A stretch of DNA of 64,000 bases, taken from IMG/VR virus record IMGVR_UViG_3300021057_000274, positions 62,001 through 126,000 of that record. The stretch is one strand, 5' to 3'. Shown one piece after another: positions 5,881 through 61,255 of the stretch; positions within the stretch are counted from its first letter, which is position 1; each line of letters starts with the position of its first letter. The notes under the pieces are model-generated. The model was not told the DNA's origin, ran no database searches, and saw nothing but the letters and a program-made list of their open reading frames with translations. The position numbers and the translations under genes are program-made. The DNA is from a virus.

Positions 5881-5909
5881 TTTACTTTTCGCGCGATCTG
5901 TGATTAAAT
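5881..5909 (+). promoter_or_regulatory. sigma70-like promoter
   Basis: TTTACT 5881-5886, 17 bp, TTAAAT 5904-5909. Start near 5916 leaves an 80-nt leader with a GGGTCCCGGGTGGGATC block before the ATG at 5997. Confidence 0.7.
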
Positions 5910-5996: not shown

Positions 5997-6335
5997 ATGA
6001 AGTCCTAGGTTTCCGAACAAAAGCACTGGACGTACTGCTTCCTCCGCGGTGATCTCCCGATCGCCCAGCAGGCGCTCCAAGCCGGACATGCTCTCCTCGA
6101 GCTCGGCATCAAGCACGGCCCGTCGCCCGACGGTCATCCCAGCATCATCTTCCTGGACACAAAGGACAAGCAAGAGCTCGAAGCTGCTCTCGACTTGACG
6201 CGCTCTCACGGGCTCAAGACGTACGAGTTCCACGAGCCGTACAAGAACTGGGGCCTCACGTCGTTCGCGACGCAACCGATTCCGGAAGATCAGCGTCACC
6301 TCTTCAAGCAGTTCAACCTCTGGAGGAAGTCATGA
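5997..6335 (+). CDS. peptidyl-tRNA hydrolase (Pth2-like) with in-frame UAG at codon 4
   Basis: Reads ATG AAG TCC TAG GTT TCC and then an open frame to TGA at 6333. GGAG at 5987-5990 is correctly spaced for the ATG at 5997. After the UAG (6006-6008) there is no ATG, GTG or TTG before the conserved part, so a normal downstream start is excluded. The protein has the Pth2 pattern: RGDLPIAQQALQAGHALLE (basic-Asp, then AQ..HA), IIFLDTKDKQELEAALDL and a Thr/Ala-rich C-terminal strand. Pth2 hydrolyses peptidyl-tRNA to recycle tRNAs. The amber codon could be read by the suppressor tRNA at 61181. A frameshift or sequencing error at the start is the main alternative. Confidence 0.7.
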
Positions 6336-6478
6336 ACCAGCAGCTCAAGGATAAGCTCGTCGAGTTTCTCGAGTACGCAGCTCAGCGAGAGGAGGACTCG
6401 GACCAAACCAGTGATCACTACGTCAAGTGGGCGCGAGAGCTCGCCGACGAGGTCAAGAGGGAGAAGCTCGATGCGTAA
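6332..6478 (+). CDS. hypothetical protein, 48 aa
   Basis: Not recognised. ATGA overlap with the Pth2-like stop. Acidic helical peptide (KLVEFLEYAAQREED). Overlaps the next start by 8 nt. Confidence 0.55.
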   Translation: MNQQLKDKLVEFLEYAAQREEDSDQTSDHYVKWARELADEVKREKLDA

Positions 6479-6746
6479 GGAGATGACCGAGCTGGAGCTC
6501 AAGTTCGGCTTTGAGCTCGCATGCGAGCTCAAGGAGATCGTGAAGGCGTACGCGAGAGAGCACAAGCCGGCTGACGTCTGGCATCGCCCCTTCGAGGGCG
6601 AGCCCTCACAGGTCGACTTTGACGGAGGGCTAGTCAACGTTAAGTTCAGCCGCTACATCATGGGCTGCAACGAGTACGAGCACCAGGAGTGCTCGTACGG
6701 CGTCGATGACATCATCGAGTGGTACTTCTGGGGGAGCCATGGGTGA
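6471..6746 (+). CDS. hypothetical protein, 91 aa
   Basis: Not recognised. ATG at 6471 lies inside the 3' end of the previous gene. Helical N-terminus then a beta-like half (VDFDGGLVNVKFSRYI) with two Cys. The stop overlaps the next gene by 8 nt. Confidence 0.6.
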   Translation: MRKEMTELELKFGFELACELKEIVKAYAREHKPADVWHRPFEGEPSQVDFDGGLVNVKFSRYIMGCNEYEHQECSYGVDDIIEWYFWGSHG

Positions 6747-6855
6747 CTTCTCGCGTTGTCCTCACGACGACTTTCTAGGTTACTGCAAGCAGTGCAACCC
6801 TAACCTTTGCCAGGAGTGCTACATGCAACCGTGTGAGTGTGAAGTTCCGCCGTAG
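6739..6855 (+). CDS. Cys-rich zinc-binding module, ends at UAG that may be read through
   Basis: 38 codons with GGGGGAG upstream of the ATG. Contains CPHDD, YCKQC, LCQEC and PCEC, a cross-brace-like set of Cys/His ligands. The UAG at 6853-6855 is followed in the same frame by the HD-domain gene. The codons after it are GTT TCC, identical to those after the UAG at 6006. Readthrough would give a 247-residue zinc-HD fusion. Confidence 0.55.
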   Translation: MGDFSRCPHDDFLGYCKQCNPNLCQECYMQPCECEVPP

Positions 6856-6882
6856 GTTTCCCTCGATCAGCTGATCGAGCAG

Positions 6883-7482
6883 ATGAAGACGTGCGAGCAG
6901 GCCCGCGGCCTCTCGATCTACCAGCACGGCCTCGACGTGGCCAACCGCTATCGTGACCTCTACGAGTACCTCGAGACAGGAAAGACCGTCTACAAGTGGG
7001 ACATTCCCGAGGAGTCACTTCTCGAGACTCCCGTTCTCTACCGGGTGGCCCTCCCGCCCAAGGACGTGCGCACGTACCACATCTTCCATGATTGCGGCAA
7101 GCCCTACTGTCTAACGATCGACGCTGATGGGAAGAAGCACTTTCCGAACCACGCCGCCGAATCGGCTCGGGTGTTCCGAGAGCTGTTTATCGAGAATCGG
7201 GAGTTCGACGCGACTAAGGACTCTGGATTGCTGCTCATGACCGAGCAGCTCATCAAGCTCGACATGTGGGCGCACACTTGTCGCGGCGAGGAGATCACCG
7301 AGTTTTGCAAGCATCCGCTGGCGCCGACGCTCCTCCTGACGGCTTGGGCCGAGATCCACGCGAACGCCGAGATGTTCGGTGGCTTCGAGTCCACCTCGTT
7401 CAAGATCAAGAGGAAACACCTGGCCAAGGTCACCAGGCGATTGCACGCTTACCTGTGCGAGCAATTAGAGCTACCGAAATAG
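6883..7482 (+). CDS. HD-domain phosphohydrolase-like protein
   Basis: 199 aa from the ATG at 6883, but protein-like sequence continues upstream in frame (VSLDQLIEQ) to the UAG at 6853-6855, so the true N-terminus may lie 9 codons earlier or be fused to the zinc module at 6739. HD signature: YHIFHDCGKP (His-Asp metal pair), then HFPNHAAESARVFREL. HD enzymes are metal-dependent phosphohydrolases on nucleotides or RNA ends; substrate not deducible. Stop is TAG. Confidence 0.6.
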   Translation: MKTCEQARGLSIYQHGLDVANRYRDLYEYLETGKTVYKWDIPEESLLETPVLYRVALPPKDVRTYHIFHDCGKPYCLTIDADGKKHFPNHAAESARVFRELFIENREFDATKDSGLLLMTEQLIKLDMWAHTCRGEEITEFCKHPLAPTLLLTAWAEIHANAEMFGGFESTSFKIKRKHLAKVTRRLHAYLCEQLELPK

Positions 7483-9565: not shown

Positions 9566-9643
9566 AGCGGAGTGGAGCAGCCCGGTAGCTCGTTGGCCTC
9601 ATAAGCCAAAGGTCGTTGGTTCGAATCCAACCTCACGCAACCA
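9566..9643 (+). tRNA. tRNA-fMet(CAT), initiator type
   Basis: Anticodon loop CTCATAA, D-arm GGAGCAGCCCGG and GGTCGTTGG as in bacterial initiators, unpaired position 1 against A72, encoded CCA. The 3' acceptor strand has one extra A (CTCACGCA), giving a bulge. Confidence 0.8.
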
Positions 9644-9649
9644 GCTCAG

Positions 9650-9760
9650 CACCTTCCCCGAGGTGCAAAGCTAACTAGCGGTGGATCGCTAGCACAATCT
9701 GAAAAATCAGTCGTTTCTCCACCTAAGCACAAACGACCGTCGGACGCTGTAACCGACATT
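9650..9760 (+). other. hairpin-rich inter-tRNA spacer
   Basis: No tRNA. Contains consecutive perfect small hairpins: GCACCT/AGGTGC, CTAGCG/CGCTAG, CTGA/TCAG, CGTTT/AAACG and GTCGG/CCGAC. Confidence 0.5.
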
Positions 9761-9762
9761 TT

Positions 9763-9836
9763 GCGGGTGTGGTACAATGGTAGCATGCAACCTTGCCAAG
9801 GTTGAGACGAGGGTTCGATTCCCTTCACCCGCTCCA
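9763..9836 (+). tRNA. tRNA-Gly(GCC)
   Basis: Acceptor GCGGGTG with its complement, anticodon loop TTGCCAA (U33), T-loop TTCGATT, encoded CCA. Confidence 0.9.
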
Positions 9837-9837
9837 G

Positions 9838-9894
9838 TAGGTAGTTGTAAAAGGTCGACCGCCCACATGGGGCGGCGGATTTGAAGGTACCTAC
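9838..9894 (+). other. spacer stem-loop closed by a perfect 7-bp stem
   Basis: GTAGGTA pairs with TACCTAC and encloses CCGCCC-ACAT-GGGGCGG. It lies exactly between two tRNA-Gly genes. Confidence 0.45.
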
Positions 9895-9899
9895 GCAGT

Positions 9900-9970
9900 G
9901 CGGGTGTAGCTCAATGGTAGAGCAACTGCCTTCCAAGCAGAAGACGGGGGTCCGATTCCCCTCACCCGCT
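9900..9970 (+). tRNA. tRNA-Gly(TCC)
   Basis: Acceptor GCGGGTG, loop CTTCCAA with anticodon TCC, T-loop TCCGATT. The genome continues CCG, so CCA is not encoded. Confidence 0.88.
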
Positions 9971-9972
9971 CC

Positions 9973-10046
9973 GAGGTTGTCGTCTAAGTGAAGACGCTGG
10001 GGCCCCAAAATCTCCAGAAACGGTGGTTCAAACCCATCCGACCTCG
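9973..10046 (+). tRNA. tRNA-like, oversized anticodon loop
   Basis: 7-bp acceptor GAGGTTG/CGACCTC, D-stem GTCT/AGAC and T-arm GGTGG-TTCAAAC-CCATC all form. The anticodon arm CTGGGG/CTCCAG leaves a 9-nt loop CCCCAAAAT with no U33, so the isotype is undecided. Confidence 0.5.
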
Positions 10047-10048
10047 CC

Positions 10049-10116
10049 GATGCTGGAGTTCAAACGCGAAGCCGGTTTCCGGAGCTAGCTCAACCTGAAC
10101 TCGCAGCAGAAGCATC
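10049..10116 (+). other. structured inter-tRNA element
   Basis: Closed by GATGCT/AGCATC (10049-10054 with 10111-10116); inner GAGTTCA/TGAACTC (10056-10062 with 10096-10102). No anticodon or T-loop. Confidence 0.4.
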
Positions 10117-10171
10117 ACAGGGTTGGGGGTTTCGCGGACCTCTGTGTTTCAAGAGCTTTGCTGATGCGTCT

Positions 10172-10247
10172 GGGGAAGTAGCTCAGCTGGGAGAGCGCAA
10201 CGTTCGCAACGTTGAGGTCGAGGGTTCGATCCCCTTCTTCTCCACCA
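10172..10247 (+). tRNA. tRNA-Ala(CGC)
   Basis: Acceptor GGGGAAG with complement, anticodon loop TTCGCAA, T-loop TTCGATC, encoded CCA. Confidence 0.9.
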
Positions 10248-10251
10248 CGTT

Positions 10252-10298
10252 AGTCCCGTAACTAGTACTCGGGACAGTGATCGGTGAGACTCCGATCA
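10252..10298 (+). other. two perfect spacer hairpins
   Basis: GTCCCG/CGGGAC (10253-10258 with 10270-10275) and TGATCGG/CCGATCA (10278-10284 with 10292-10298) fill the gap between two tRNA-Ala genes. Confidence 0.45.
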
Positions 10299-10302
10299 AG
10301 TT

Positions 10303-10378
10303 GGGGCCTTAGCTCAGCTGGGAGAGCGTATGCATGGCATGCATAAGGTCAAGGGTTCGATCCCCTTAGGCTCCACCA
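10303..10378 (+). tRNA. tRNA-Ala(GGC)
   Basis: Acceptor GGGGCCT, anticodon loop ATGGCAT, T-loop TTCGATC, encoded CCA. Confidence 0.9.
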
Positions 10379-10425
10379 ATCGCGCACTGAGCGGAGACGC
10401 TTGGGGCGAAAGAGGGTTCAAAGCT

Positions 10426-10504
10426 GGTGCTGAGAAGTCGGGGTAAGAGCTAACGCCCAACCCGAGAACCTCAGGATGATGCTCGCTTTGATTGCGTTAG
10501 CACC
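10426..10504 (+). other. tRNA-sized structured element
   Basis: GGTGCTGA pairs with TTAGCACC and the 3' end reads ACCA, as in a tRNA. The interior has TCGGG/CCCGA but no recognisable anticodon arm or TTCGA loop. Confidence 0.35.
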
Positions 10505-10506
10505 AA

Positions 10507-10581
10507 GCGGAATTAGTTCAGTGGCTAGAACGAGAGCTTCCCAAGCTCAAGACGCGGGTCCGATTCCCGCATTCCGCTCCA
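10507..10581 (+). tRNA. tRNA-Gly(CCC)
   Basis: Acceptor GCGGAAT/ATTCCGC, loop TTCCCAA, T-loop TCCGATT, encoded CCA. Confidence 0.88.
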
Positions 10582-10683
10582 GCGGGGTCGAGAAGTGGAG
10601 AACTAGGAAGAAATTCTGAGGTTCGCATCTCACTGGCCTCATAAGCCAGACAAGGCAGCGTTCAAATCCTGCCCCCGCAACCA
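10582..10683 (+). tRNA. tRNA-Met(CAT), initiator-like, expanded D-loop
   Basis: Acceptor GCGGGG/CCCCGC with CGCAACCA 3' end as in initiators, anticodon stem CTGGC-CTCATAA-GCCAG. The D-stem GAGA/TCTC encloses about 34 nt that holds its own GAAC/GTTC hairpin. The T-arm loop is also enlarged. Confidence 0.65.
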
Positions 10684-10710
10684 GTAGAAGCCCGCAACGG
10701 GTCTACGCCA

Positions 10711-10740
10711 ACCGGCTTTAAGAAGAAAGGCTGTTAGCCG
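10711..10740 (+). other. leader hairpin before the gene at 10760
   Basis: Perfect 7-bp ACCGGCT/AGCCGGT stem-loop at the end of tRNA cluster A. No T-run follows, so it is a processing or leader structure rather than a clear terminator. Confidence 0.4.
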
Positions 10741-10759
10741 GTCAGCCTCAAGGAGCAGT

Positions 10760-11587
10760 ATGATGTACAACAACAAGCTCGCCGTGGCGATCCTCAATAA
10801 CGGCCAGGTGTTGCGCGAACGCGGCGACACCGTCTACCTCCCCTTTGGTTCAGAGTACGCCATCCGCGTCAAGAACCTCAACACGACCAAGGCATCGGTC
10901 AAGGTTGAGATCGACGGCAAGGAGGCGACCGAGGGAGTAGCGCTCATCATCGACCCTAACGAGAGCTTCGACCTCGAGCGCTTCATCAAGAACGGCAACC
11001 TCAACCAGGGAAACCGCTTCAAGTTCATCCAGCGCACCGCGGCAGTCGCGAGGCATCGCGGCGTCAGCATCGACGACGGGCTGATCCGCGTCACGTTCCA
11101 GTTCGAGCGTCCCTACGTGCGCCCGAGCACGTGGCCATGGGTTGAACGTCGACGCAGCAGCTGGACTCTCGGCGGCACTCCCTACGGCAGGCGCTCCACC
11201 GACAACGGGAGAAGCTCTTGGACCGCAGGAGGTCTCGGATCAAGCGGGAGCTCTTACAGCGCTAGCGCCTCTAACTCCGTGCTTCGGTCGAAGTCATCAA
11301 CTGTCTACGACGGTGACGCGCAGTGCTCGCTAGAACCAGATCCGGTCGGAGTCACAGCGGCTGGAAGCGTCTCTGACCAGCAGTTTCAAGTCGTCAGCTC
11401 TCTCAATCTCGATCCTCAAGAGCACGTCATGGTGCTCCGCTTGCTCGGAGAGTCCGCCGAGACGAAGATCAAGGTGACGAAGCCGCTGACGGTCAAGTCG
11501 AAGCCCAAGTGCTCCTCGTGCGGCTTGAAGTGCAAGTCGTCCTGGAGATCTTGTCCGCGATGCAGCACTAGCCTCGAGATCGTCTAG
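10760..11587 (+). CDS. hypothetical protein with N-terminal beta domain and C-terminal zinc ribbon
   Basis: 275 aa. Residues 1-115 look like a small beta-sandwich (VKVEIDGKEA, ALIIDPNESFDLERFI, GNRFKFI). The middle is a Ser/Gly/Arg-rich linker (WTLGGTPYGRRSTDNG). The last 30 residues contain CSSCGLKC and CPRC, a zinc ribbon. AAGGAG is 5-6 nt before the ATG. Stop TAG overlaps the next GTG. Similar beta-domain proteins occur in other large phages; role unknown. Confidence 0.65.
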   Translation: MMYNNKLAVAILNNGQVLRERGDTVYLPFGSEYAIRVKNLNTTKASVKVEIDGKEATEGVALIIDPNESFDLERFIKNGNLNQGNRFKFIQRTAAVARHRGVSIDDGLIRVTFQFERPYVRPSTWPWVERRRSSWTLGGTPYGRRSTDNGRSSWTAGGLGSSGSSYSASASNSVLRSKSSTVYDGDAQCSLEPDPVGVTAAGSVSDQQFQVVSSLNLDPQEHVMVLRLLGESAETKIKVTKPLTVKSKPKCSSCGLKCKSSWRSCPRCSTSLEIV

Positions 11588-11985
11588 TGGGAAGCCGAAG
11601 CCAGCGGCGACGCGATCGCCTCGGAATCCGGGCGACCGGACACACTCCTGAGGGAAAGCAGGTCATGGGCGGGATGTTCAAGCTCGTCAACGAGCACGGC
11701 GTGCCGCTCTCGATCCTGCTCTTCAAGCTTGACGAGAGCGGTTGCGTTCTAGACTGGCAAGACTTCGTGCAAGACGCTCTAGAAGCAGGTTGGACGATCA
11801 AGGGTCTCACCTCACGGGTTGAGGAAGCTCTGATCGACAGCTCGTACAACAAGATCTCGCGTGACGAGATCTTGAGCAGGTTGAAGTTACTCGTCGTAAA
11901 GCTCTACGCCGAGACACAAGAAAGTGAAAAATTCCATGCCAAAGCGCATAAACATCAAGCCGGTCAAGAAGACCAAAACTCCTAA
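11587..11985 (+). CDS. hypothetical protein, 132 aa
   Basis: Not recognised. GTG at 11587 overlaps the preceding TAG. N-terminal basic stretch then an acidic helical body (LDWQDFVQDALEAGWTIKGL). Its last 50 nt overlap the vWA gene start. Confidence 0.6.
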   Translation: MGSRSQRRRDRLGIRATGHTPEGKQVMGGMFKLVNEHGVPLSILLFKLDESGCVLDWQDFVQDALEAGWTIKGLTSRVEEALIDSSYNKISRDEILSRLKLLVVKLYAETQESEKFHAKAHKHQAGQEDQNS

Positions 11986-12679
11986 GCTCACTCGCATCCT
12001 CTTCGTTCTCGACGAGTCGACCTCGATGGGATCGGTTCGCAACGAGACGATCGCAGGTTTCAACACCTTCCTCGAGGAGCAAAAGAAGATCAAGGGGAAG
12101 GCGACGATGACCCTAGTCAAGTTCAGCTCGGCCCCAAAGATGGTCTTCTCGAACGTTCCGATCGAGCACGTCCAACCGCTCGATCACACGACGTTCACCC
12201 CAAACGGATGGACGGCGCTCTACGACGCGGTCGGCGATGCGATCACGAGCTGCGGTGACCTCAAGCCGAAGGGCGTCAAGACGATCCTCGCGATCCTGAC
12301 CGACGGCGAGGAGAACAAGAGCTATCGCTTCTCGTTCGAGCGCATCACGGCGATGCTCAAGGAGTGCCAGGGCAACCCGAGCGAGCCCTGCGCAGATGAC
12401 TGGGAGGTGCTCTACCTCGGGTCACAGATGGGTGCGCGCCAAACCGCGATCGACATGGGCATCAAGCTCCAGAACGTCGCCGCGTTCGACGTCGGCGCCA
12501 AGGGCATGTCCGACGCGATCAAGACGATGTCGGCGACGGCCTCGTCCTACCGCGGAATCGACCAGAACATCGGTGGAGTCTTCTACGCCGCCGGCGCGGT
12601 AGACACCCAAGCGATGTACGAGACGATCAAGAAGGAGATCACGACCACAACCGTAACGACGAAGAAGGCCGACAAGTAA
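11936..12679 (+). CDS. von Willebrand factor A (vWA) domain protein, TerY/TROVE type
   Basis: 247 aa from the ATG at 11936; an in-frame GTG at 11924 would add four residues. MIDAS motif DESTSMGS near residue 26, then TFTPNGWTALYDAV with the Thr, and ILAILTDGEENKS with the second Asp. All three metal-ion-dependent adhesion elements are present. vWA proteins of this kind pair with TerD proteins, so it may work with the TerD-like protein at 3663 (inference). The 5' end overlaps the previous gene. A strong hairpin follows. Confidence 0.75.
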   Translation: MPKRINIKPVKKTKTPKLTRILFVLDESTSMGSVRNETIAGFNTFLEEQKKIKGKATMTLVKFSSAPKMVFSNVPIEHVQPLDHTTFTPNGWTALYDAVGDAITSCGDLKPKGVKTILAILTDGEENKSYRFSFERITAMLKECQGNPSEPCADDWEVLYLGSQMGARQTAIDMGIKLQNVAAFDVGAKGMSDAIKTMSATASSYRGIDQNIGGVFYAAGAVDTQAMYETIKKEITTTTVTTKKADK

Positions 12680-12684
12680 CGAAA

Positions 12685-12716
12685 GCTTTCGGGGAGGCTC
12701 GCGAGCCTCCCCGAAG
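12685..12716 (+). terminator. long GC-rich hairpin without T-run
   Basis: GGGGAGGCT-CGCG-AGCCTCCCC extended by CTTTC/GAAG, about 14 bp. No following T-run, so termination would be weak or it protects the mRNA 3' end. Confidence 0.5.
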
Positions 12717-12723
12717 CCCGCGG

Positions 12724-12752
12724 TTTACCTCTCGCGTCTCTCATGATATAAT
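12724..12752 (+). promoter_or_regulatory. sigma70-like promoter, leaderless transcript
   Basis: TTTACC 12724-12729, 17 bp, TGATATAAT ending 12752; ATG at 12758 is at about +1. Confidence 0.75.
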
Positions 12753-12757
12753 TTCTC

Positions 12758-13708
12758 ATGAGCAATTCCTACAACCTTCAATTTCAGAAGGATCGGACCT
12801 TTCTCAAGGCCTACATGTTGGGGAGAGGATACTCCCTCGGGCTCAAGGCTCTCGGCTTCTCAGAGCGACACCACACCGGACTCAGGAAGGACAAGCAGAC
12901 CCCGGAGTTTCATCACCAGGTTCAGATCGCTCTCTCGGTTCTCGATCTCAAGGGGCTCATCAACGAGGAGCTCGCGATCGTCATCGCTCTCCTCCATGAC
13001 GTTCAGGAGGATCACCGCGTTCCGACCGAGGCGATCCGCCGCGAGTTTGGCGACGATGTCGCCTCCGTCAACTGGAAGATGACCAAGAAGTTTGTCGAGA
13101 CCGACGGCACGCTCACGGTCAAGGACAGAGAAGCTTACATCATCGATCTCTCACTTGACGCGACTGGTTCGATCGTCAAGGGGCTTGACCGAGTCAACAA
13201 TCTTCAGACGATGATCGGCGTCTTCACCGTCGAGAAGATGCAGAGCTACGCCGACGAGGCGGAGACGATCTTCCTCCCGATGCTGAAGAAGGCGTCGAAG
13301 CACTTCCCCGAACAACATCACGCGTATCAGGCCGTGCAGCAAACGATGAAGCGCCAGCTCAAGTGGATTCGCGCTTACATCGACTTGCACCAGCGCCTCG
13401 AAGCTCACATCGATCATGTCGAGATGGAGCACGAGGCAACGATCGTAGAGCGAAACGCGGCGCTAAAGACGAACGCTGATTTGCGTCACTTCACAGAAAC
13501 TCTTCAAGAGAAAAATCGAGGACTCGCAGAGATTGCCGCCAAAGGGGTGACGGAAATAAACCGCGCGCTGATTCGTGCCGTTGCTAAAGCGCTTCTCGAG
13601 AACCGCGTGACAGGTGACAAGCATGACAGCGTCTTACAGCGTCTTGCATGGCGTCATGCGCGAGCTGGGCATCTCCGAGCTCGAGATGATCCAATTTCGC
13701 GACGATAA
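12758..13708 (+). CDS. SpoT-like (p)ppGpp hydrolase domain protein
   Basis: 316 aa. Residues 1-190 match the RelA/SpoT HD hydrolase: ERHHTGLRKD, FHHQVQIAL, LLHDVQED (HD metal pair) and KGLDRVNNLQTM (the later Asp and Arg). This is the size of small alarmone hydrolases and no synthetase domain follows; the rest is a coiled-coil-like tail. Expected reaction: ppGpp to GDP plus pyrophosphate. In infection it would lower the stringent alarm (inference). The last 28 residues look unnatural and overlap a better small ORF at 13623, so the native C-terminus may differ. Leaderless start. Confidence 0.8.
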   Translation: MSNSYNLQFQKDRTFLKAYMLGRGYSLGLKALGFSERHHTGLRKDKQTPEFHHQVQIALSVLDLKGLINEELAIVIALLHDVQEDHRVPTEAIRREFGDDVASVNWKMTKKFVETDGTLTVKDREAYIIDLSLDATGSIVKGLDRVNNLQTMIGVFTVEKMQSYADEAETIFLPMLKKASKHFPEQHHAYQAVQQTMKRQLKWIRAYIDLHQRLEAHIDHVEMEHEATIVERNAALKTNADLRHFTETLQEKNRGLAEIAAKGVTEINRALIRAVAKALLENRVTGDKHDSVLQRLAWRHARAGHLRARDDPISRR

Positions 13709-13736
13709 GGTGAGCGGAGACATCAACCAGACCTAA
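13623..13736 (+). CDS. small ORF, 37 aa
   Basis: MTASYSVLHGVMRELGISEL then a charged tail. Overlaps the hydrolase 3' end by 86 nt in another frame and reads more like a protein than the hydrolase tail there. No strong Shine-Dalgarno. Confidence 0.45.
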   Translation: MTASYSVLHGVMRELGISELEMIQFRDDKVSGDINQT

Positions 13737-13764
13737 CTTTCCTATCTCCCAGCGGCGGCCAGGT

Positions 13765-13770
13765 TAAATA
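13765..13770 (+). promoter_or_regulatory. late promoter motif TAAATA
   Basis: GTTAAATAAG about 30 nt before the TTG at 13801, bracketed by GGCC/GGCC. Likely drives the capsid-targeted protein run 13801-17263. Confidence 0.55.
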
Positions 13771-13800
13771 AGAGGGCCAACTAAAGCTCGGAGATGTGAA

Positions 13801-14208
13801 TTGAAGCTAAACGAACTTAAGGCCGCGATGATCCAGCGGTTCTTTAAGAGCACCAACGGTCTAGGTGACGATCGTCTCGACGAGATCCTAGGGTCTCTAG
13901 GGACCGCGATCACAGAGGAGATCGACAGCTTCTTGACCGTTGGAAGCTCCGAGTCGCATGAGGCTAGCAAAGCCTTCAGTCGATTCATCTCGGGTGACCG
14001 GGCCTTCCTCACCGTCTGCGAGGAGGAGGGCCACAAGAACAAGATCTTCTTCGCGGCGCTCAGGTCAGGAAAGAAGATCTCCTACGTCGACCTGTCGGAC
14101 GGTGAGATCAAGGTTGAGCTAGGTACCTTCGCGCAGATCAAGGAAGCTCTCAAGCAAGCTCAAGCGCTCAACGACGACATCTTCTTTGAGATCGCGGTCG
14201 AGGGATGA
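13801..14208 (+). CDS. hypothetical late protein, 135 aa
   Basis: TTG start with GGAG 7 nt upstream. Begins MKLNELKAAMI. Helical, with a beta-like C-terminal part (ISYVDLSDGEIKVELG). Not recognised. First of five overlapping genes with related N-termini; ends in ATGA overlap. Confidence 0.6.
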   Translation: MKLNELKAAMIQRFFKSTNGLGDDRLDEILGSLGTAITEEIDSFLTVGSSESHEASKAFSRFISGDRAFLTVCEEEGHKNKIFFAALRSGKKISYVDLSDGEIKVELGTFAQIKEALKQAQALNDDIFFEIAVEG

Positions 14209-15635
14209 GGATCACCGAGGTTTACCGGCGCAAGACTACCCCCGAGGGGTGGATCGAGATCGGCGAGATCGGCCGGACGATCTTTGGTCAACAAAATCAG
14301 TACTTCGCTCGATACTTCGAGATGCCCGAGATCGTCAAGGACCTGCGGGTGAACGGCGACCCCGCCGACTATCACAGCTGGTCGATCCACCCCGACGACA
14401 AGGACAAGTTCGTTGAGCGCGTGAGAGAGCATTCAAAGAGCAAGGGACTAGCTGAAGCCGACACCCCACCTTCACCCAAGCCGGAAGATCCAGTCAAGCA
14501 GGAGATCAAAGCTGAGGTTACTAAGCGAACGGGGTCGGCGCGCACCAACTTTGCTCAAGAGTACCAGCGACGCTCCGCTCGCCAGGCAGAGATCAACGAG
14601 CTGAGCAAGCAAGGCACCTCCGAGCTCAACATCAAGGAGGCGATCATCAAGATCGCCGAGGACGATAACAAGGCCTACCCCCAGTTTCACGGCAAGTGGA
14701 AGGGCAAGGACTGGCGCGTGATGCGGTGCAACCACCGCGTCAAGACGAAGGGTTACCCAGCCGCCGAGAGGGGGGACCTCGTGCTAGCCAAGAAGGAGCC
14801 TGCGCAGGAGCACGAAAAGCACAAGGGCGACGAGCGTGTCACCTTCTACTCGATCCGGAACGCCGTTGACACGATCAGCATGAAGGCTAAGTCATTCGTG
14901 CCGCTCTCTACCGTGACAGAGAGTAAGACTGAGATCAAGAAGCTCTTTAAGAAGGGTGGCTTCTTAAAGTGGAACAACATCACGAACAAAGAAGCTCGCG
15001 AAGCAGGAATCGCACCTAACGACCTAGTACCTGCGACTTTGAATCAAACTTACGACAAGAAGATCTTGGGGCTTCGCATCGACGGACGGCCTTATCTTCT
15101 CAACGAGGGTCATCCCGGCTTCGACAGCTACTACACGGTGCGACGTGCAGGAGGCTATGAGGAGTACGAGGTCGCGAAGTTCTCGGACCGCAAGGAGCCT
15201 GAGTACGTCGAGTGGGTCAAGAAGAAGGACGACAAGAACTTTGAGTCATCCTCTCACAGCTTCCGCAAGATGGGGCAGCTTGACAAGTCGATCGTCATCG
15301 TCAAGCAGTTCATCGCGGACGGTGAGCCTGACCTCGTCTACTACACCGTCGAGGAGAAGCCAAAGCGTCACGCGGTGAAGCACAAGATGGGCGGCGAGGG
15401 CCCGCAGCCAGACATGTTCTCAGAGGGAAGGTTGGGAGATCTTCAGGCAGAGCTCACTAGACTGAAGGTACCTAGCTTTCACATGAACGCCGTCATGAAC
15501 GCGGCGACGCAAGCCTCCTCCTACACCGATTTCGTCAGCATGCTCAGAAAACGCGAGCTTCTCCTGAAGCACGGCAACGAGGGGATGGAGGAGATCTACC
15601 GCACCGTACGCTCGATGATGAAGAGGACCTCATGA
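14205..15635 (+). CDS. hypothetical late protein, 476 aa
   Basis: Not recognised. Starts MRITEVYRRK. Lys/Glu-rich linker around residues 75-130, then a mixed alpha/beta body and a helical C-terminus. Its size, late position and overlapping neighbours with targeting-like starts suggest a virion-internal protein (inference). Both ends are ATGA overlaps. Confidence 0.6.
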   Translation: MRITEVYRRKTTPEGWIEIGEIGRTIFGQQNQYFARYFEMPEIVKDLRVNGDPADYHSWSIHPDDKDKFVERVREHSKSKGLAEADTPPSPKPEDPVKQEIKAEVTKRTGSARTNFAQEYQRRSARQAEINELSKQGTSELNIKEAIIKIAEDDNKAYPQFHGKWKGKDWRVMRCNHRVKTKGYPAAERGDLVLAKKEPAQEHEKHKGDERVTFYSIRNAVDTISMKAKSFVPLSTVTESKTEIKKLFKKGGFLKWNNITNKEAREAGIAPNDLVPATLNQTYDKKILGLRIDGRPYLLNEGHPGFDSYYTVRRAGGYEEYEVAKFSDRKEPEYVEWVKKKDDKNFESSSHSFRKMGQLDKSIVIVKQFIADGEPDLVYYTVEEKPKRHAVKHKMGGEGPQPDMFSEGRLGDLQAELTRLKVPSFHMNAVMNAATQASSYTDFVSMLRKRELLLKHGNEGMEEIYRTVRSMMKRTS

Positions 15636-16138
15636 AGCTTAAGACTGTCTTGACCGAAGCCCCGAAGTGGACAAAGCACCCGACTCGCAAGGGGGTACTG
15701 ACTCGCACGATCTCACCTGAAGAGCGGAAGCGTGAGGAGGAAAAGGAATCTGCTCCCAAGAAGAGCGCGAGCAACGAGCAGAAGTGGCTCCAACCGATTC
15801 CTGAGCTGGACGTCTCGGAGATCAAGAAGGCGTGCAAGAACGGAGGTAATGACATCGGCGCCGAGATCGAGGAGGCCACGCGAGGGCAATCCTTCGTCAA
15901 GGAGGTCACGTACGATCCTGAGCACATCGGGGTCCCTGAAGCGAAGCGGAAGTATAAGTTCAAGAGTGACAGCGACATGCCGAAGCGCAAGGTCGCAGCC
16001 GTCAAGTATGACCTCTTCGTCTACTACGACGCGAAGGAAGCTGGGATCGAGACCGACGCCGATCACGTCGAAGAGATGGTGAAGATCATCATCTATCGTG
16101 ATCCGATTAACCCGAAGCGCTTGATCGGAACGTACTAA
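15632..16138 (+). CDS. candidate internal head protein, 168 aa
   Basis: Starts MKLKTVLTEAPKW. The first nine residues plus Glu-Ala match the T4 capsid-targeting and protease-cleavage pattern (hydrophobic-x-Glu before Ala). A Lys/Glu-rich segment follows, then an alpha/beta C-terminal domain. Not otherwise recognised. Confidence 0.6.
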   Translation: MKLKTVLTEAPKWTKHPTRKGVLTRTISPEERKREEEKESAPKKSASNEQKWLQPIPELDVSEIKKACKNGGNDIGAEIEEATRGQSFVKEVTYDPEHIGVPEAKRKYKFKSDSDMPKRKVAAVKYDLFVYYDAKEAGIETDADHVEEMVKIIIYRDPINPKRLIGTY

Positions 16139-16139
16139 G

Positions 16140-16697
16140 TTGAAGTTCAAAGCTTTTCTCGCTGAGTCGGTCACCTTCGGCGCGACGATCCATCGCGTAG
16201 AGAAGGACGGGCAGCGCTCGCATGACTTCACTCCGTTCGAGAAGGAGAAGGAGATCGACTGTCGTGAGTGCCACTACCACGGCAAGTCCGAGCACTGCTG
16301 GATGTGCAAGGGAACGGGAAAGGAGAAGGTTTGGGTGACCGACTACGACAAGATTCAGCTCTCAAACTCGGGCGCGCTCGCCTTCTTGAGCGCGATCGGT
16401 GAGAAGGTCAACGGCGACGAGAGCTTAGTCGGCGGGTGGGATAACTCGGAGCTCCCTGAGCTCCGACGGAGGCTCATTCGGATGAAGAACGGCGACCTAA
16501 AGCACCATGAGACGCCACCGAGCGATGAGCAGCGCGTCCGCGGGGTCAAGCATGACGGAAACGTAGCGACGATCGAGCGCGGCCCTCGCATGATCAGTTA
16601 CGGACGAACCGCCGCACAGTACGGCGAGCTGATCGACGACTTGCTCAAGCTCATCGACTTCGCTCAGAAGCACGACGCAGGAGTGAGCTGGGCATGA
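16140..16697 (+). CDS. candidate internal head protein with zinc finger, 185 aa
   Basis: TTG start: MKFKAFLAESVTFGA, again a targeting-like peptide ending Ala-Glu before Ser. Residues 40-60 hold CRECHYHGK and CWMCKGTG, a DnaJ-like four-Cys zinc finger. It ends in an ATGA overlap with the next gene. Confidence 0.62.
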   Translation: MKFKAFLAESVTFGATIHRVEKDGQRSHDFTPFEKEKEIDCRECHYHGKSEHCWMCKGTGKEKVWVTDYDKIQLSNSGALAFLSAIGEKVNGDESLVGGWDNSELPELRRRLIRMKNGDLKHHETPPSDEQRVRGVKHDGNVATIERGPRMISYGRTAAQYGELIDDLLKLIDFAQKHDAGVSWA

Positions 16698-17263
16698 AGA
16701 TCATCGAGCTCGTCGAGGGCGAGGTCATCAACATCGAGGACAAGCTTACCAAGAAGGTCAGGTCAGAATTTCGTGACAAGCTCAGCAAGATTGCCGACGA
16801 CTTGCCTCGCGCTTTCAAGCAGCAAAAGGACCAGGAGAACTGGCTCTCAGACGAGCTCAAGCGAATCAAGGAGATTCCGAACAAGGAGTTCGGAAAGGCC
16901 GAGCTCATGAAGGTGCGTCCGCTCTTCAAAGATCGCGTCGGTGGCTTCCAGATCACCGACGCGATCGTCAGCAACATGCATCGCCTCGAGTGGATCAGAG
17001 ACGGCGAGGAGTACGATAACTCGGCGACCGGCGAGACCAAGGAAGAGTTTGAGCTCGCCAAGAGGTACTTCAGTGAGAACCACGAGAAGCTCATTCAAGT
17101 TCTTCAGAAGCAGATCGACGAGCTGCGAAAGCTCGCCGAGGAAGCTCGCAAGCTGAAGTGGTACGCGCCGTGGGAGCGCTACTCGATGTACGGGTACGAC
17201 CTTCATCAGTACAAGCGTGACCTGGAGTCCCTCAAGCAGTTCAAGAAAGCGTTAAAGCTCTAA
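16694..17263 (+). CDS. hypothetical late protein, 189 aa, coiled coil
   Basis: Starts MKIIELVEGEVIN. Long charged helices with heptad-like spacing (KLIQVLQKQIDELRKLAEEA). Not recognised. Last gene of the late run; stop TAA before the next promoter. Confidence 0.6.
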   Translation: MKIIELVEGEVINIEDKLTKKVRSEFRDKLSKIADDLPRAFKQQKDQENWLSDELKRIKEIPNKEFGKAELMKVRPLFKDRVGGFQITDAIVSNMHRLEWIRDGEEYDNSATGETKEEFELAKRYFSENHEKLIQVLQKQIDELRKLAEEARKLKWYAPWERYSMYGYDLHQYKRDLESLKQFKKALKL

Positions 17264-17269
17264 ATTTCA

Positions 17270-17298
17270 TTTACTTTTGAGTGATTTTGAGTTAAAAT
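17270..17298 (+). promoter_or_regulatory. sigma70-like promoter
   Basis: TTTACT 17270-17275, 17 bp, TAAAAT 17293-17298. A GGAGG-type Shine-Dalgarno precedes the GTG at 17326. Confidence 0.75.
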
Positions 17299-17325
17299 GC
17301 CTCTATTGCTACTTCGGAGGCGAAC

Positions 17326-17805
17326 GTGGCGCAAGTCTTTGACCTGAATGAGCTTCTTCACGAGGACGCGCTGCCTTGTAGCTTCGCGTATCTCGACATC
17401 GACGAGCTTCAGATGACGGTCGGGGACTTCTTCTCACGCAACTACGCTCGCGACCTGGTCAACTTCACCCCGATCGACTACCCGGGCTCGCAGCACAAGC
17501 GCGTGCTTCAAGCGTTTCTCCTGCGTCAGCCGATTCCCCGTTTCATCCTCGCCAACAATGACTCTAGCGGCGCCCTGAAGATTCTCAAGGGCCACGCGAT
17601 CATCGAGGCGATGGAGTACGTCTATCGCAATTACAAGAGCACCGACAGAGCGCTCGCCCGCCGTGTCCTGACCTCGATGATCACCTTCACGATCGTTCGT
17701 CGACACAGCGAAGCTCACAAACCCTTCGGTCGATTCGGTATCGACAACGAGACGCTCTACCTGAACTTCCTCAAGTTTCTCGACGCGTGCAACGAGTCGC
17801 GCTGA
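17326..17805 (+). CDS. DUF262/ParB-N-like domain protein, 159 aa
   Basis: The segment FTPIDYPGSQHKRVLQAFLL with RQPIPRFILA resembles the DUF262 (GmrSD N-terminal) pattern in which a nuclease or NTP-sensing core begins. The canonical DGQQR motif is not evident (KGHAIIEAM stands in its place), so activity is doubtful. GTG start with GGAGG upstream. Confidence 0.45.
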   Translation: MAQVFDLNELLHEDALPCSFAYLDIDELQMTVGDFFSRNYARDLVNFTPIDYPGSQHKRVLQAFLLRQPIPRFILANNDSSGALKILKGHAIIEAMEYVYRNYKSTDRALARRVLTSMITFTIVRRHSEAHKPFGRFGIDNETLYLNFLKFLDACNESR

Positions 17806-17987
17806 GTCTCGTCGCTCTCTGCCTCACAGGATGCGCCTCGGTCTGCCCTGAAGACACCCAGCGCCACGTCATCGCGAAGACGGTCGGCGGGCTCACCCAG
17901 TACTCGGTACCTTATGTCAGCCGAATGCCGGTACCGGTCTACGCGGAAATTCCAGTCACCGTCAGCGTCTGCCGCCCGGTCGAGTAG
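17787..17987 (+). CDS. small lipoprotein, 66 aa
   Basis: GTG start; N-terminus VALSLVALCLTGCASVC is a lipoprotein signal with lipobox LTGC. The mature part is short, Pro/Val-rich and has a second Cys pair. Could be an outer-spanin (Rz1-like) or an entry-exclusion lipoprotein. Overlaps the previous gene by 19 nt. Confidence 0.6.
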   Translation: MQRVALSLVALCLTGCASVCPEDTQRHVIAKTVGGLTQYSVPYVSRMPVPVYAEIPVTVSVCRPVE

Positions 17988-18009
17988 TTCACAAGAACTA
18001 ACGGCAGTG

Positions 18010-18038
18010 TTTACAAGCTACTAGATTCCGATTACAAT
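18010..18038 (+). promoter_or_regulatory. sigma70-like promoter for an RNA unit
   Basis: TTTACA 18010-18015, 17 bp, TACAAT 18033-18038. No good ORF follows for 400 nt. Confidence 0.7.
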
Positions 18039-18044
18039 TACTCC

Positions 18045-18430
18045 AAGTTGCACGGAGGTCCGCAAGGCTCAAGTCGGACTAGGCAGGCCCCACAAGGGTC
18101 GAACAGCAGTTCGAGCCTCCCACGCAACCCAGTTACGAAGGTTCTCCGGGTGGACTCCGGGGAAGAGATCGCAGTATAACGCCAGACCCTGTCGGTTAAG
18201 AGCCAGGGACCAACCGGTGAGACCGTGGACGCCGAGAGGCAGAGGTCAAGTCCGGGAACCCCGCAGGGCGGACTGGGTATAGCGGCCGATCGTAACGCTC
18301 TGTGGAATTCGTTTTGGATCCGCGGCTGGTGCAGTACGCAGTTCGCCACTACGCGCTGAGGTACCGAGGTGAAGAGGCTCCAGATAGACGGCCGTCTAGC
18401 TGGAGCGGATAGGGTCCAAAACAAATTGCA
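18045..18430 (+). ncRNA. unassigned structured RNA, about 380 nt
   Basis: Own promoter upstream, a second promoter at 18439 after it, and no coding frame. Many strong helices: GGTCCG/CGGACT, TCGAAC-AGCA-GTTCGA, GGCCC/GGGTC, CCCTG/CAGGG, AGTCCG/CGGACT and a long terminal arm GTTTTGGA...TCCAAAAC. It is not tmRNA, RNase P RNA or 4.5S RNA by their conserved cores. Position beside a phage tRNA array recalls GOLLD/ROOL-type RNAs, but I see no specific match. Confidence 0.55.
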
Positions 18431-18438
18431 CAAAGTTG

Positions 18439-18467
18439 TTTACAAGCGAGGGAGACTGTGATACCAT
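18439..18467 (+). promoter_or_regulatory. sigma70-like promoter
   Basis: TTTACA 18439-18444, 17 bp, TACCAT 18462-18467 with TGA extension. Confidence 0.65.
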
Positions 18468-18484
18468 CGCTCTTCGAGTTGCAC

Positions 18485-18655
18485 ATGATTAACCTTTTCG
18501 GAAAATTGAGCACCGGTATAAATACCAGCACAATGAGAACCTCCTTTACAAAACCAGCGCAAATTAGGACCGCCGCCGGCGAGCATCGAGAGACGATGCA
18601 GCCGTGCGTCAATCCTGATACGCGCTCCTCGATCGGAGGCGGAAGCTCAAACTAA
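18485..18655 (+). CDS. small ORF, 56 aa
   Basis: MINLFGKLSTGINTS start; an inner ATG at 18533 is an alternative. Polar, with a Ser/Gly tail. A promoter lies just upstream and a terminator just downstream, so a short mRNA is plausible. Not recognised. Confidence 0.4.
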   Translation: MINLFGKLSTGINTSTMRTSFTKPAQIRTAAGEHRETMQPCVNPDTRSSIGGGSSN

Positions 18656-18685
18656 CGAGATCTTCCGCTAAGGCAGCACCCGGTC

Positions 18686-18718
18686 GAGGGGTCCAGAGAT
18701 GGACCCCTCATTCGTTTT
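18686..18718 (+). terminator. rho-independent terminator
   Basis: Perfect 9-bp GAGGGGTCC/GGACCCCTC hairpin with 6-nt loop, followed by ATTCGTTTT. Confidence 0.8.
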
Positions 18719-18748
18719 GGAGTCAAGCGGTTGAAGTTGTAGCACGAT

Positions 18749-18824
18749 GCGCCTGTAGCTCAGTGGAGAGAGTGCCGCGCTACGAACGCGGAGGTCGGGG
18801 GTTCGATCCCCTCCAGGCGTGCCA
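18749..18824 (+). tRNA. tRNA-Arg(ACG)
   Basis: Acceptor GCGCCTG with complement, anticodon arm CCGCG-CTACGAA-CGCGG, T-loop TTCGATC, discriminator G, encoded CCA. Confidence 0.92.
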
Positions 18825-19028
18825 GAGGTTAAGTCGATGACCTCGATGTAACACCTAGAAGTCGACAACGCCGGTGAATCAGGGCGTGGGGAACCAAGTA
18901 CTGGTTGGATGCTGAAATGAAGCCGCGGTTTTACCCTTAAGCGCGGTGGATGACTGAGAAAGGGCGCTGTAGCCGGTCTAGCATGGGTGTCGAAGTCGAC
19001 TCCCCCTCGATCGGAGCGGTGACAAGAT
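18825..19028 (+). other. 204-nt inter-tRNA spacer without a gene
   Basis: No convincing ORF or complete tRNA. Contains GAGGT/ACCTC and CCGCG/CGCGG pairings only. Confidence 0.3.
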
Positions 19029-19100
19029 ACGCCCGCCGATGGATTTTCGGCGCCAGGTCTTCTAAACCAGGATAGGAGGGTTCGATTCCTTCCGGGCGTG
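19029..19100 (+). tRNA. tRNA-Arg(TCT)
   Basis: Acceptor ACGCCCG/CGGGCGT, anticodon loop CTTCTAA, one mismatch in the anticodon stem, T-loop TTCGATT. CC but no A encoded. Confidence 0.75.
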
Positions 19101-19103
19101 CCT

Positions 19104-19177
19104 TCCCACATAGCTCAATGGTAGAGCCGCTGGTTGTGAACCAGATTGCCCGGGTCCGATTCCCGGTGTGGGACCCA
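19104..19177 (+). tRNA. tRNA-His(GTG)
   Basis: Acceptor TCCCACA/TGTGGGA, loop TTGTGAA, discriminator C typical of tRNA-His, encoded CCA. Confidence 0.88.
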
Positions 19178-19193
19178 GTAGTTGCAGTTCAAT

Positions 19194-19286
19194 TCCTCGG
19201 TACTCTAACGGTAAGAGACCTGGCTGTTAACCAGACGTATCCCGCCACCGAGCGGTATGGAGGTTCGAGTCCTCCCTGAGGAGCCA
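19194..19286 (+). tRNA. tRNA-Asn(GTT) with a long variable arm
   Basis: Acceptor TCCTCGG/CTGAGGA, loop CTGTTAA, T-loop TTCGAGT, CCA. The variable region holds an extra CCGC/GCGG hairpin of about 18 nt, which tRNA-Asn normally lacks. A canonical tRNA-Asn follows directly. Confidence 0.7.
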
Positions 19287-19289
19287 AAT

Positions 19290-19364
19290 GGGTGCGTAGC
19301 TCAGTGGTAGAGCGGGAACCTGTTAAGTTCCGGGTCGAAGGTTTGATTCCTTCCGTGCCCTCCA
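19290..19364 (+). tRNA. tRNA-Asn(GTT)
   Basis: Acceptor GGGTGCG, anticodon arm GGAAC-CTGTTAA-GTTCC, T-loop TTTGATT, encoded CCA. Confidence 0.9.
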
Positions 19365-19374
19365 CAATTCAGTA

Positions 19375-19441
19375 ACCGGGAAGTCCTAGTGACGTATTGC
19401 CGCGGCTGCCATCGTTGGCACGTAGGCTAGGACTTCCCGGT
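19375..19441 (+). repeat. 15-bp perfect inverted repeat between tRNAs
   Basis: ACCGGGAAGTCCTAG (19375-19389) and its exact complement (19427-19441) enclose 37 nt. Likely an RNA stem long enough for RNase III, or a protected spacer. Confidence 0.8.
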
Positions 19442-19454
19442 AGAAGTACAACAT

Positions 19455-19530
19455 TGGCTCATTGATGAATGGGTTATCATACTACCCTGTCACGGTAGGT
19501 TAGCGGGTTCGAGTCCCGCATGGGTCGCCA
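19455..19530 (+). tRNA. tRNA-Asp(GTC)
   Basis: Acceptor GGCTCAT/ATGGGTC with wobbles, anticodon arm CTACC-CTGTCAC-GGTAG, T-loop TTCGAGT, G73, encoded CCA. Confidence 0.85.
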
Positions 19531-19534
19531 AAAT

Positions 19535-19615
19535 GCGCTTCGGGAGGTTGAATCTCAACAGGTCGGGTCGCTCCCGTCTGTAAAACATGGGTTAAATTCC
19601 TGTGGAAGCGCGCCA
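19535..19615 (+). tRNA. tRNA-like with CCA; possible tRNA-Tyr(GTA)
   Basis: Perfect acceptor GCGCTTC/GAAGCGC and GCCA end. The region CTGTAAAAC could hold a GTA anticodon, but no regular 7-nt loop forms. Also contains GGTCGGGTCGCTCCC, close to the motif shared by the RNA modules at 3441 and 3582. Confidence 0.4.
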
Positions 19616-19660
19616 AAATTAGAGGCTGACGATTCTGGGCGGCAATCTAGAGTCGGCGGT

Positions 19661-19766
19661 TTGTCGTTGAGGGTGGCTCCTCAGGACCCCGAGTAGGACG
19701 GTGAGATCTTGCCGGATCGAGCCGTTTGAAACGGGTCCTGTCGGTGGTTCGATTCCACCACGACTT
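19661..19766 (+). tRNA. oversized tRNA-like gene, expanded anticodon arm
   Basis: Helices in cloverleaf order: GTCGT/ACGAC, D-arm TGAGG-GTGGCT-CCTCA, GGACCC/GGGTCC (19684-19689 with 19733-19738) and T-arm GGTGG-TTCGATT-CCACC. The GGACCC arm encloses 43 nt instead of 7. Isotype not assignable; could be an intron-like insert. Confidence 0.45.
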
Positions 19767-19782
19767 CACTCTAACCCTCTTC

Positions 19783-19998
19783 ATGAAGCTGTGGGTAGAT
19801 CACCCTGCCACAAATCGGGTGATGAGGTCCGATCGCCTTCGTCCGTGGCATGCATGGCGCCAGGGCGATACCCCAGCAGTAACTGCGGCCGTCACCGAAC
19901 TTTATGCGAGAAAGTTCAGCGGTGACGAGGAGGAGGCGAACTGCTCGTTCAGTTGTCCCATTCGTCTAGTGGCTAGGACACAACCCTTTCAAGGTTGA
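19783..19998 (+). CDS. doubtful small ORF, 71 aa
   Basis: From the ATG at 19783 (MKLWVDHPATNRVMRS). The first 60 residues look protein-like; the end runs into tRNA-Glu at 19955, which no bacterial gene needs. No Shine-Dalgarno seen. Confidence 0.25.
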   Translation: MKLWVDHPATNRVMRSDRLRPWHAWRQGDTPAVTAAVTELYARKFSGDEEEANCSFSCPIRLVARTQPFQG

Positions 19999-20029
19999 GA
20001 ACGGGGATCGAAACCCCGATGGGACACCA
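19955..20029 (+). tRNA. tRNA-Glu(TTC)
   Basis: Acceptor GTCCCAT/ATGGGAC, anticodon loop CTTTCAA (U33), D-arm TTCGTCTAGTGG typical of Glu, encoded CCA. Confidence 0.92.
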
Positions 20030-20033
20030 CTAT

Positions 20034-20109
20034 CTGGGTGTAGGTCAGCGGCGAGACTGCCTGGTCCGGAGCCAGGAGGCCGTGGGTTCGAGTCCCACCA
20101 CCCAGACCA
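20034..20109 (+). tRNA. tRNA-Pro(CGG), C33 type
   Basis: Acceptor CTGGGTG/CACCCAG, stem CCTGG/CCAGG with loop TCCGGAG, giving anticodon CGG after C33. A CCG (Arg) reading would need a shifted stem. Encoded CCA. Confidence 0.65.
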
Positions 20110-20149
20110 AAGCGGCCCCCAGCGCCGCTCTAAGCCGAGGCTGGGGCAT

Positions 20150-20225: not shown

Positions 20226-20235
20226 ACACATCAAT

Positions 20236-20310: not shown

Positions 20311-20311
20311 C

Positions 20312-20385: not shown

Positions 20386-20391
20386 AAATTT

Positions 20392-20465: not shown

Positions 20466-20468
20466 GCA

Positions 20469-20617: not shown

Positions 20618-20625
20618 TAAACTAG

Positions 20626-61136: not shown

Positions 61137-61165
61137 TAGAAAAGCGGCGAGATCTGTGATATAAT
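61137..61165 (+). promoter_or_regulatory. promoter of the suppressor tRNA
   Basis: TGTGATATAAT with TATAAT 61160-61165; weak -35. tRNA starts 16 nt later. Confidence 0.62.
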
Positions 61166-61180: not shown

Positions 61181-61255
61181 GCTCCCTTAGCTCAGCGGCA
61201 GAGTACGGGACTCTAAATCCTAGGGTCGTGGGTTCGAATCCCACAGGGAGCACCA
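61181..61255 (+). tRNA. amber suppressor tRNA(CTA)
   Basis: Acceptor GCTCCCT/AGGGAGC, T-arm GTGGG-TTCGAAT-CCCAC, encoded CCA. Anticodon loop CTCTAAA (61211-61217) has normal U33 and anticodon CTA, which reads UAG. The anticodon stem has one C-A mismatch and one G-U pair. It stands alone with its own promoter, far from the main array. The amino acid cannot be deduced; discriminator is A. Confidence 0.85.

Follow-up and report, generated by a model that had tools for sequence, protein, structure and literature searches.

A conserved early UAG in two jumbo-phage genes and a dedicated tRNA as its candidate reader

How does a phage express a conserved protein when the fourth codon of its gene is a stop? 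The question arises in IMG/VR virus record IMGVR_UViG_3300021057_000274, a jumbo-phage record of 389,331 bases, of which positions 62001-126000 (64 kb, here called the window) were analyzed. Within it, a gene for a type I Pth2-like protein (pth2) and a nearby gene for an HD-domain protein each carry an in-frame UAG directly before the conserved protein, and a transfer RNA (tRNA) with the anticodon CUA is encoded in the same window. Judging from sequence comparison, we consider it very likely (roughly 90%) that this dedicated phage tRNA licenses translation of pth2 and the HD gene. What the sequences contain is a conserved early nonsense codon, co-variation of this codon with the anticodon of a linked tRNA, a biased context after the stop, and a promoter-like box shared by pth2 and the tRNA gene.

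An early UAG before two conserved proteins

The pth2 gene opens with ATG AAG TCC TAG GTT TCC, continues for 108 sense codons from position 6009, and stops at TGA (6333-6335). The nearest in-frame ATG, GTG, or TTG lies 62 codons downstream of the TAG, so the gene has no alternative start, as a preliminary description made from the sequence alone had claimed. That description also placed the second UAG between a cysteine-rich module and an HD frame that continues in phase, and the sequence confirms it. The HD gene could start at ATG 6739 or at ATG 6823, which has a good Shine-Dalgarno sequence (AGGAG) and would make the UAG codon 11; its terminal stop is TAG (7480-7482). To the earlier account we add an ATG in the same frame at 6883, downstream of the UAG. 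It encodes a Met that is invariant in the conserved domain, and a start there, which would cut off the first helix of the structure model, was rejected.

The GTT TCC reported after both UAGs holds for this phage, where TAGGTTTCC occurs exactly twice in the 64 kb, at the pth2 and HD UAGs (0.28 copies expected; two copies reached in 5 of 100 shuffles), but it does not stand as a general motif. Since relatives carry other bases, only a purine after the UAG is general. Across 91 nonduplicate early sites, the next base is A 74 times, G 10 times, and C 7 times but never U, whereas terminal UAGs are commonly followed by any of the four. A purine in this position favors suppression, and U favors termination.

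To follow the early stop in relatives, we searched annotated phages by tblastn with the protein downstream of each UAG (17 and 23 records matched) and read the upstream DNA for a start and an early stop. Pth2 and HD start as M-T-UAG in ME3, M-T-H-UAG in Serratia phage BF, M-L-UAG in Arash, M-A-H-UAG in Kaldavass and XbC2, and M-A-Q-UAG in CBB and GAP32, and the fused proteins of XacN1, CM1, and RAS14 (HD-Pth2) and of pT24 (Pth2-HD) all start as M-K-UAG. IMG/VR was scanned with an HD alignment (117 relatives, 80 kept), and viral contigs were searched with HD and type II Pth2 alignments, a mixed Pth2 alignment having no conserved blocks. More than 100 related loci have an ATG, a few codons, and a TAG before a conserved Pth2 and/or HD protein, and they come from phages of Proteobacteria, Bacteroidota, and Actinobacteria. 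The comparison of N termini that the preliminary description had proposed thus finds the early TAG kept in most homologues, far beyond chance: 69 of the 77 scorable Pth2 genes have an ATG, at most 10 codons, and a TAG and offer no other start upstream of the domain, and 49 HD genes have an early TAG of the same design, counts that take in some close relatives and become 47 Pth2 and 44 HD sites after removal of duplicates. No early TAA or TGA was found in those 77 Pth2 genes. Some HD genes without the early TAG have an internal TAG instead or are fused behind a putatively gated Pth2. A second Pth2 type (type II, with the GK motif kept) has the early TAG too, and so do LR756511, LR756500, LR756501, and Mycobacterium phage IkeLoa (M-UAG-V), whose relatives fill 190 records; in these cluster C1 phages, the M-UAG-V Pth2 gene adjoins tRNA-CUA. 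Chromosomal relatives appear in 1 of 395 and 1 of 392 genomes, and the system is therefore centered on mobile elements.

An unbiased scan returned the same two families. Each ATG followed by at most 8 codons, a stop, and an open reading frame (ORF) of at least 50 codons was taken from all loci (421 TAG, 385 TGA, and 302 TAA candidates) and compared all against all, with similarity required immediately downstream of the stop. Only two large families emerged, Pth2 (77 members, all TAG) and HD (50 TAG, 2 TGA); the remainder formed groups of at most 7 members, including the second Pth2 type (5 TAG). In the genome of this phage, a convincing early in-frame TAG is found in pth2 and HD only. Moreover, TAG terminates 77-78 of the 396 nonoverlapping genes of at least 100 amino acids in the record, so UAG is still a working stop, as had been noted earlier.

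Several observations on these gene families stand apart. HD genes of the BF/CBB/GAP32 group with a normal ATG start have a conserved in-frame TAG inside the gene (DTG-UAG-GDP; loci L023, L025-L028, L071, L080, L082, L092, and L094), and L064, L072, and L073 have an in-frame TAA inside the HD domain, with no UUA tRNA found nearby. Loci L048 and L050-L052 share a group of small ORFs after an early TAG (PYYTFRIELMLPLKIRKKIFTKLAQAVPG...), possibly a further client of tRNA-CUA. PHROGs 34073 and 26054 are apparently truncated fragments of the proteins treated here, and the record of Serratia phage BF holds its Pth2 without any annotation. Gene callers stop at the UAG and therefore miss or truncate these genes in public databases.

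Linkage to tRNAs that match the codon

The tRNA of this phage, called by ARAGORN with an encoded CCA end, is the sole one with a CTA anticodon among 48 tRNAs of the record; the program's label "Pyl" derives from that anticodon alone. Its own promoter, part of the preliminary description, finds a counterpart in a promoter-like box just upstream that matches the box upstream of pth2. GATCTGTGATWWAAT has exactly two mismatch-free copies in the 389 kb, one before pth2 and one before tRNA-CUA, 55 kb apart.

Of the 80 loci, 50 have a tRNA-CUA no more than about 5 kb from the genes. No other anticodon is as frequent as CTA at that distance (56 of 386 tRNAs), and all 56 of these tRNAs share the strand of the HD gene; where no copy lies nearby, the record mostly has one farther away. 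Altogether, tRNA-CUA was found for 58 of 72 early-TAG loci. ARAGORN overlooks some tRNA-like CTA genes with long D-stems. Such genes, with an unusual D-arm of about 5 bp, were seen in the early-UAG phages L146, L156, L160, and L168. Genes with normal starts served as controls. No tRNA-CUA was found in RaK2 and Hallingskeid, whose Pth2 starts normally, and of 41 PTH2 loci with a normal start, most of them canonical, 34 are without a suppressor tRNA in the vicinity. Canonical PTH2 paralogues encoded by the same phages also have normal starts.

Where the codon changes, the tRNA changes with it. Five genes have an early UGA: HD of L041 and L053, and type II Pth2 of L249, L252, and Agrobacterium phage Atu_ph07, the last reading ATG ATT GGC GAA CAC TTT TGA ATT. 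A tRNA-UCA is present in all five records, that of Atu_ph07 being published (PMC6102473), and no tRNA-CUA was found in them, L249 and L252 having been searched within the 20-kb locus only. Comparing UCA in 5 of 5 UGA loci with 0 of 70 TAG loci by Fisher test gives 6e-8, an illustrative value in that the phages are related and 70 is rounded.

A further variant replaces the stop by what may be a four-base codon. In the type II pair on megaplasmids and on a Psychromonas chromosome, the protein lies in the +1 frame of the ATG (L301, L368, L370, and L371, Pseudomonas megaplasmids; L373 and L374, Bosea megaplasmids; L304, Psychromonas chromosome). The adjacent tRNA has a 9-nucleotide anticodon loop, which appears as a closing mismatch in the ARAGORN drawings of L301 and L304. 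The four central bases of this loop are complementary to a four-base site in the frame of the ATG, and the protein is restored if the site is read as one codon. The pairs are UAGC/GCUA in eight genes on four Pseudomonas megaplasmids and CAUU/AAUG in two genes on Bosea megaplasmids; all four bases match in these 10 of 10 genes, a post hoc match in that the loop register was set by aligning the loops. The Psychromonas pair, UAAC/AUUA, matches in 3 of 4 bases, and the model has no fit for L302 (Crocinitomicaceae) and L369 (Pseudomonas Leaf58). Two distinct full-match pairs in ten genes would be hard to get by chance, and the megaplasmid pairs are possibly natural four-base decoding. Conservation, restriction to two families, linkage to tRNA-CUA, and the UGA/UCA exchange together favor what had been suggested for the window, that selected genes are read through at amber codons and the code as a whole is unchanged.

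A candidate gate and competing explanations

In the proposed mechanism, initiation would be ordinary, at an ATG with a Shine-Dalgarno sequence, but after only a few codons the ribosome would reach one that the host cannot read: UAG in this phage, and in relatives UGA or a four-base codon. If the phage tRNA is absent, translation would terminate there, and almost no Pth2 or HD protein would be made. Once transcribed and charged, tRNA-CUA would compete with release factor 1 (RF1) and allow full-length Pth2 and HD. In this phage, pth2 mRNA and tRNA-CUA would come from the same apparent promoter, and this would make the arrangement an AND gate, that is, a coherent feed-forward loop, which would suppress leaky expression and report a functional tRNA. 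The identity of the inserted residue is unlikely to matter because its position varies.

Several points weigh against this mechanism. The 78 TAG-ending genes of this phage have no extra tandem stops, and TAG-, TGA-, and TAA-ending genes do not differ in tandem stops that might be an adaptation to suppression; therefore, suppression must be partial, timed, or tolerated. No tRNA-CUA was found for 13 early-TAG loci, several of them short fragments, and at L077, another locus with TAG, the one candidate is a dubious tRNA "TCA". A GTG, a possible start, directly follows the UGA in L041, L249, and L252, which makes these three ambiguous on their own, with L053 and Atu_ph07 unambiguous; Mycobacterium phages likewise have ATG TAG GTG. 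In type I Pth2, the canonical GK motif is without its Lys, which type II relatives keep, and the enzymatic roles of Pth2 and HD are predicted from folds only.

Of the alternatives, the one that survives best, improbable as it is, holds that the early stop senses termination or drop-off of peptidyl-tRNA, so that low activity of RF1 or peptidyl-tRNA hydrolase, and not a tRNA, would permit readthrough and restore Pth2. The Pth2 fold of the product suits such a sensor. ORFs of 2-4 codons have the size of classical minigenes (lambda bar), and in the gene for release factor 2 (RF2) a stop codon is already known to act as a sensor. However, this leaves unexplained the linkage to tRNA-CUA and tRNA-UCA, the co-variation of anticodon and codon, and the identical gate of HD; the purine after the UAG suits suppression, whereas RF2 uses UGA-C and a +1 shift.

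Still less probable is a start downstream of the stop, by re-initiation at a rare start codon such as AUU or GUG, with the short ORF as a regulatory minigene. The codon after the early stop is indeed often ATT (37 of 91 sites), and GTG takes this place in IkeLoa as well as in the three UGA loci named above. Yet AAC, AAT, ACC, and CTN also directly follow the stop, and many cases have no usable start; the Shine-Dalgarno sequence belongs to the first ATG, which shares the frame of the protein. Re-initiation should also be indifferent to the type of stop, yet UAG is nearly exclusive and UGA occurs where tRNA-UCA is present, and the four-base version would remain unexplained.

A genome-wide reassignment of UAG, by code 15 or a similar code, with pth2 and HD as just two cases, has very little in its favor. 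A CUA tRNA is present, as in code-15 phages (PMC13037316), but such a code would have UAG in frame across many genes and unused as a stop, and the record has TAG at the end of 77-78 genes and convincingly early in two, with conserved early stops in relatives likewise restricted to Pth2 and HD. Finally, a pseudogene or sequencing error has a negligible chance, given the same stop at 47 Pth2 and 44 HD nonduplicate sites with the protein intact, complete isolate genomes among them.

The enzyme pair and its place among known systems

The AlphaFold model of the pth2 product is confident (predicted local distance difference test score, 94) and matches the PTH2 enzymes Bit1 and AF2095 in the PDB with a template modeling score of about 0.73, which points to a PTH2 fold for the predicted protein, although it has no Pfam match (PF01981) and no GK motif. 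The HD protein has invariant His22, His76-Asp77, His97, and Asp134 but scores 15.3 bits against Pfam HD, under the cutoff of 22; its model is confident, and a PDB search gave only weak, nonsignificant matches, including the HD domains of PgpH and OxsA. Pth2-HD fusions occur in both orders in several phages, suggesting that the two act together in one pathway. From these models, they would most likely process tRNA or peptidyl-tRNA, and possibly they hold the nonstandard tRNA or its side effects in check.

Why such a pair should be gated can be answered only tentatively. The purpose we would place first, with less than even confidence, is a leak-proof AND gate for enzymes that harm translation if made early. 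Next comes homeostasis of the unusual tRNA, a possible but somewhat weaker candidate, in which more suppression would yield more of the enzyme that removes or recycles its products. The remaining share falls to other roles, such as the response to tRNA damage that a jumbo-phage review proposes for PTH2 (PMC7824862). With more assurance, we regard these loci as probable private-codon cassettes, in which Pth2 and HD travel in phages, megaplasmids, and a few chromosomes with their own tRNA for UAG, UGA, or a four-base codon; this would point to that tRNA as something on which the enzymes act or which they protect.

Phage suppressor tRNAs that read in-frame stops are known from code 15 and code 4 phages (Lak and crAss-like), where they are thought to time expression (PMC13037316, PMC9523058). 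Those phages recode many genes, whereas here UAG stays a stop and only one gene pair, at its very beginning, would depend on the tRNA. Suppressor tRNAs in XacN1, Atu_ph07, and RsoM2USA (PMC5852040, PMC6102473, PMC8504454) are closer, phage and tRNA being of the same kind as here. The authors of XacN1 read past 18 amber stops without identifying a target (PMC5852040); the sequence suggests that the missing target is likely the fused HD-Pth2 gene, ATG AAG TAG ACC. In Atu_ph07, the target of the UCA tRNA would be Pth2 with the early UGA. Suppressor tRNAs of large phages with the standard code had no known target, and a conserved, specific candidate is now at hand.

Other parallels are partial. 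An engineered coherent feed-forward loop built on a suppressor tRNA stops leaky expression (PMC7969014); it is synthetic, and the phage gate would be its natural counterpart, with UCA or four-base readers in relatives. If true, a tRNA that licenses one operon would be a natural gate of a design previously met in synthetic biology. RF2 autoregulation shares a stop near the start as the control point but shifts to +1 and makes a release factor; the phage genes stay in frame and encode none. Pyrrolysine and selenocysteine also use a dedicated tRNA for few genes. PTH2 peptidyl-tRNA hydrolases (PF01981) occur in archaea, eukaryotes, and jumbo phages (PMC7824862); type I phage Pth2 has their fold but is shorter and lacks the GK lysine. 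Four-base suppressors such as sufD and engineered UAGN readers (PMC4764823, PMC9094753) have an enlarged loop with a four-base anticodon, as do the megaplasmid tRNAs, but they are laboratory suppressors or designs, whereas the megaplasmid tRNAs adjoin natural genes with the matching codon. In a recent study, natural four-base decoding counts as absent as a code (PMC9094753); the megaplasmid pairs would, if true, be the first cases in nature of a four-base codon with a tRNA of its own.

We found no paper that links jumbo-phage suppressor tRNAs to Pth2 or HD clients, subscription journals lying outside the search. Readthrough by a phage suppressor tRNA is of a known kind; a dedicated gate conserved across host phyla, with swapped codons, would be new, and the four-base form, as read from these sequences, may be categorically new.

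Table 1. Features of the pth2-HD locus and of the tRNA-CUA gene (window coordinates)
Feature	Position	Strand	Detail	Evidence
Promoter-like box upstream of pth2	5895..5909	+	GATCTGTGATTAAAT	DNA search, whole-record scan
pth2-like gene (type I Pth2)	5997..6335	+	ATG AAG TCC TAG GTT TCC	homologues, AlphaFold, PDB match
Early in-frame UAG of pth2, proposed gate	6006..6008	+	codon 4	sequence, homologues
Small ORF 1 between pth2 and HD	6332..6478	+	start overlaps pth2 stop	sequence
Small ORF 2 between pth2 and HD	6471..6746	+		sequence
HD-domain gene	6739..7482	+	in-frame Cys-rich leader, UAG, HD protein	sequence, homologues, model
In-frame UAG of HD gene	6853..6855	+	directly 5' of conserved HD protein	sequence, homologues
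Promoter-like box upstream of tRNA-CUA	61151..61165	+	GATCTGTGATATAAT, matches pth2 box	whole-record scan
tRNA, anticodon CUA (amber suppressor)	61181..61255	+	CCA end encoded	ARAGORN

Two small ORFs separate pth2 from the HD gene (Table 1), and the position of the first makes it probably part of the pth2 transcript. Elsewhere in the window, positions 9570-28108 hold 40 tRNA genes in two clusters and as scattered copies, which with the CTA tRNA gives 41 in the window.
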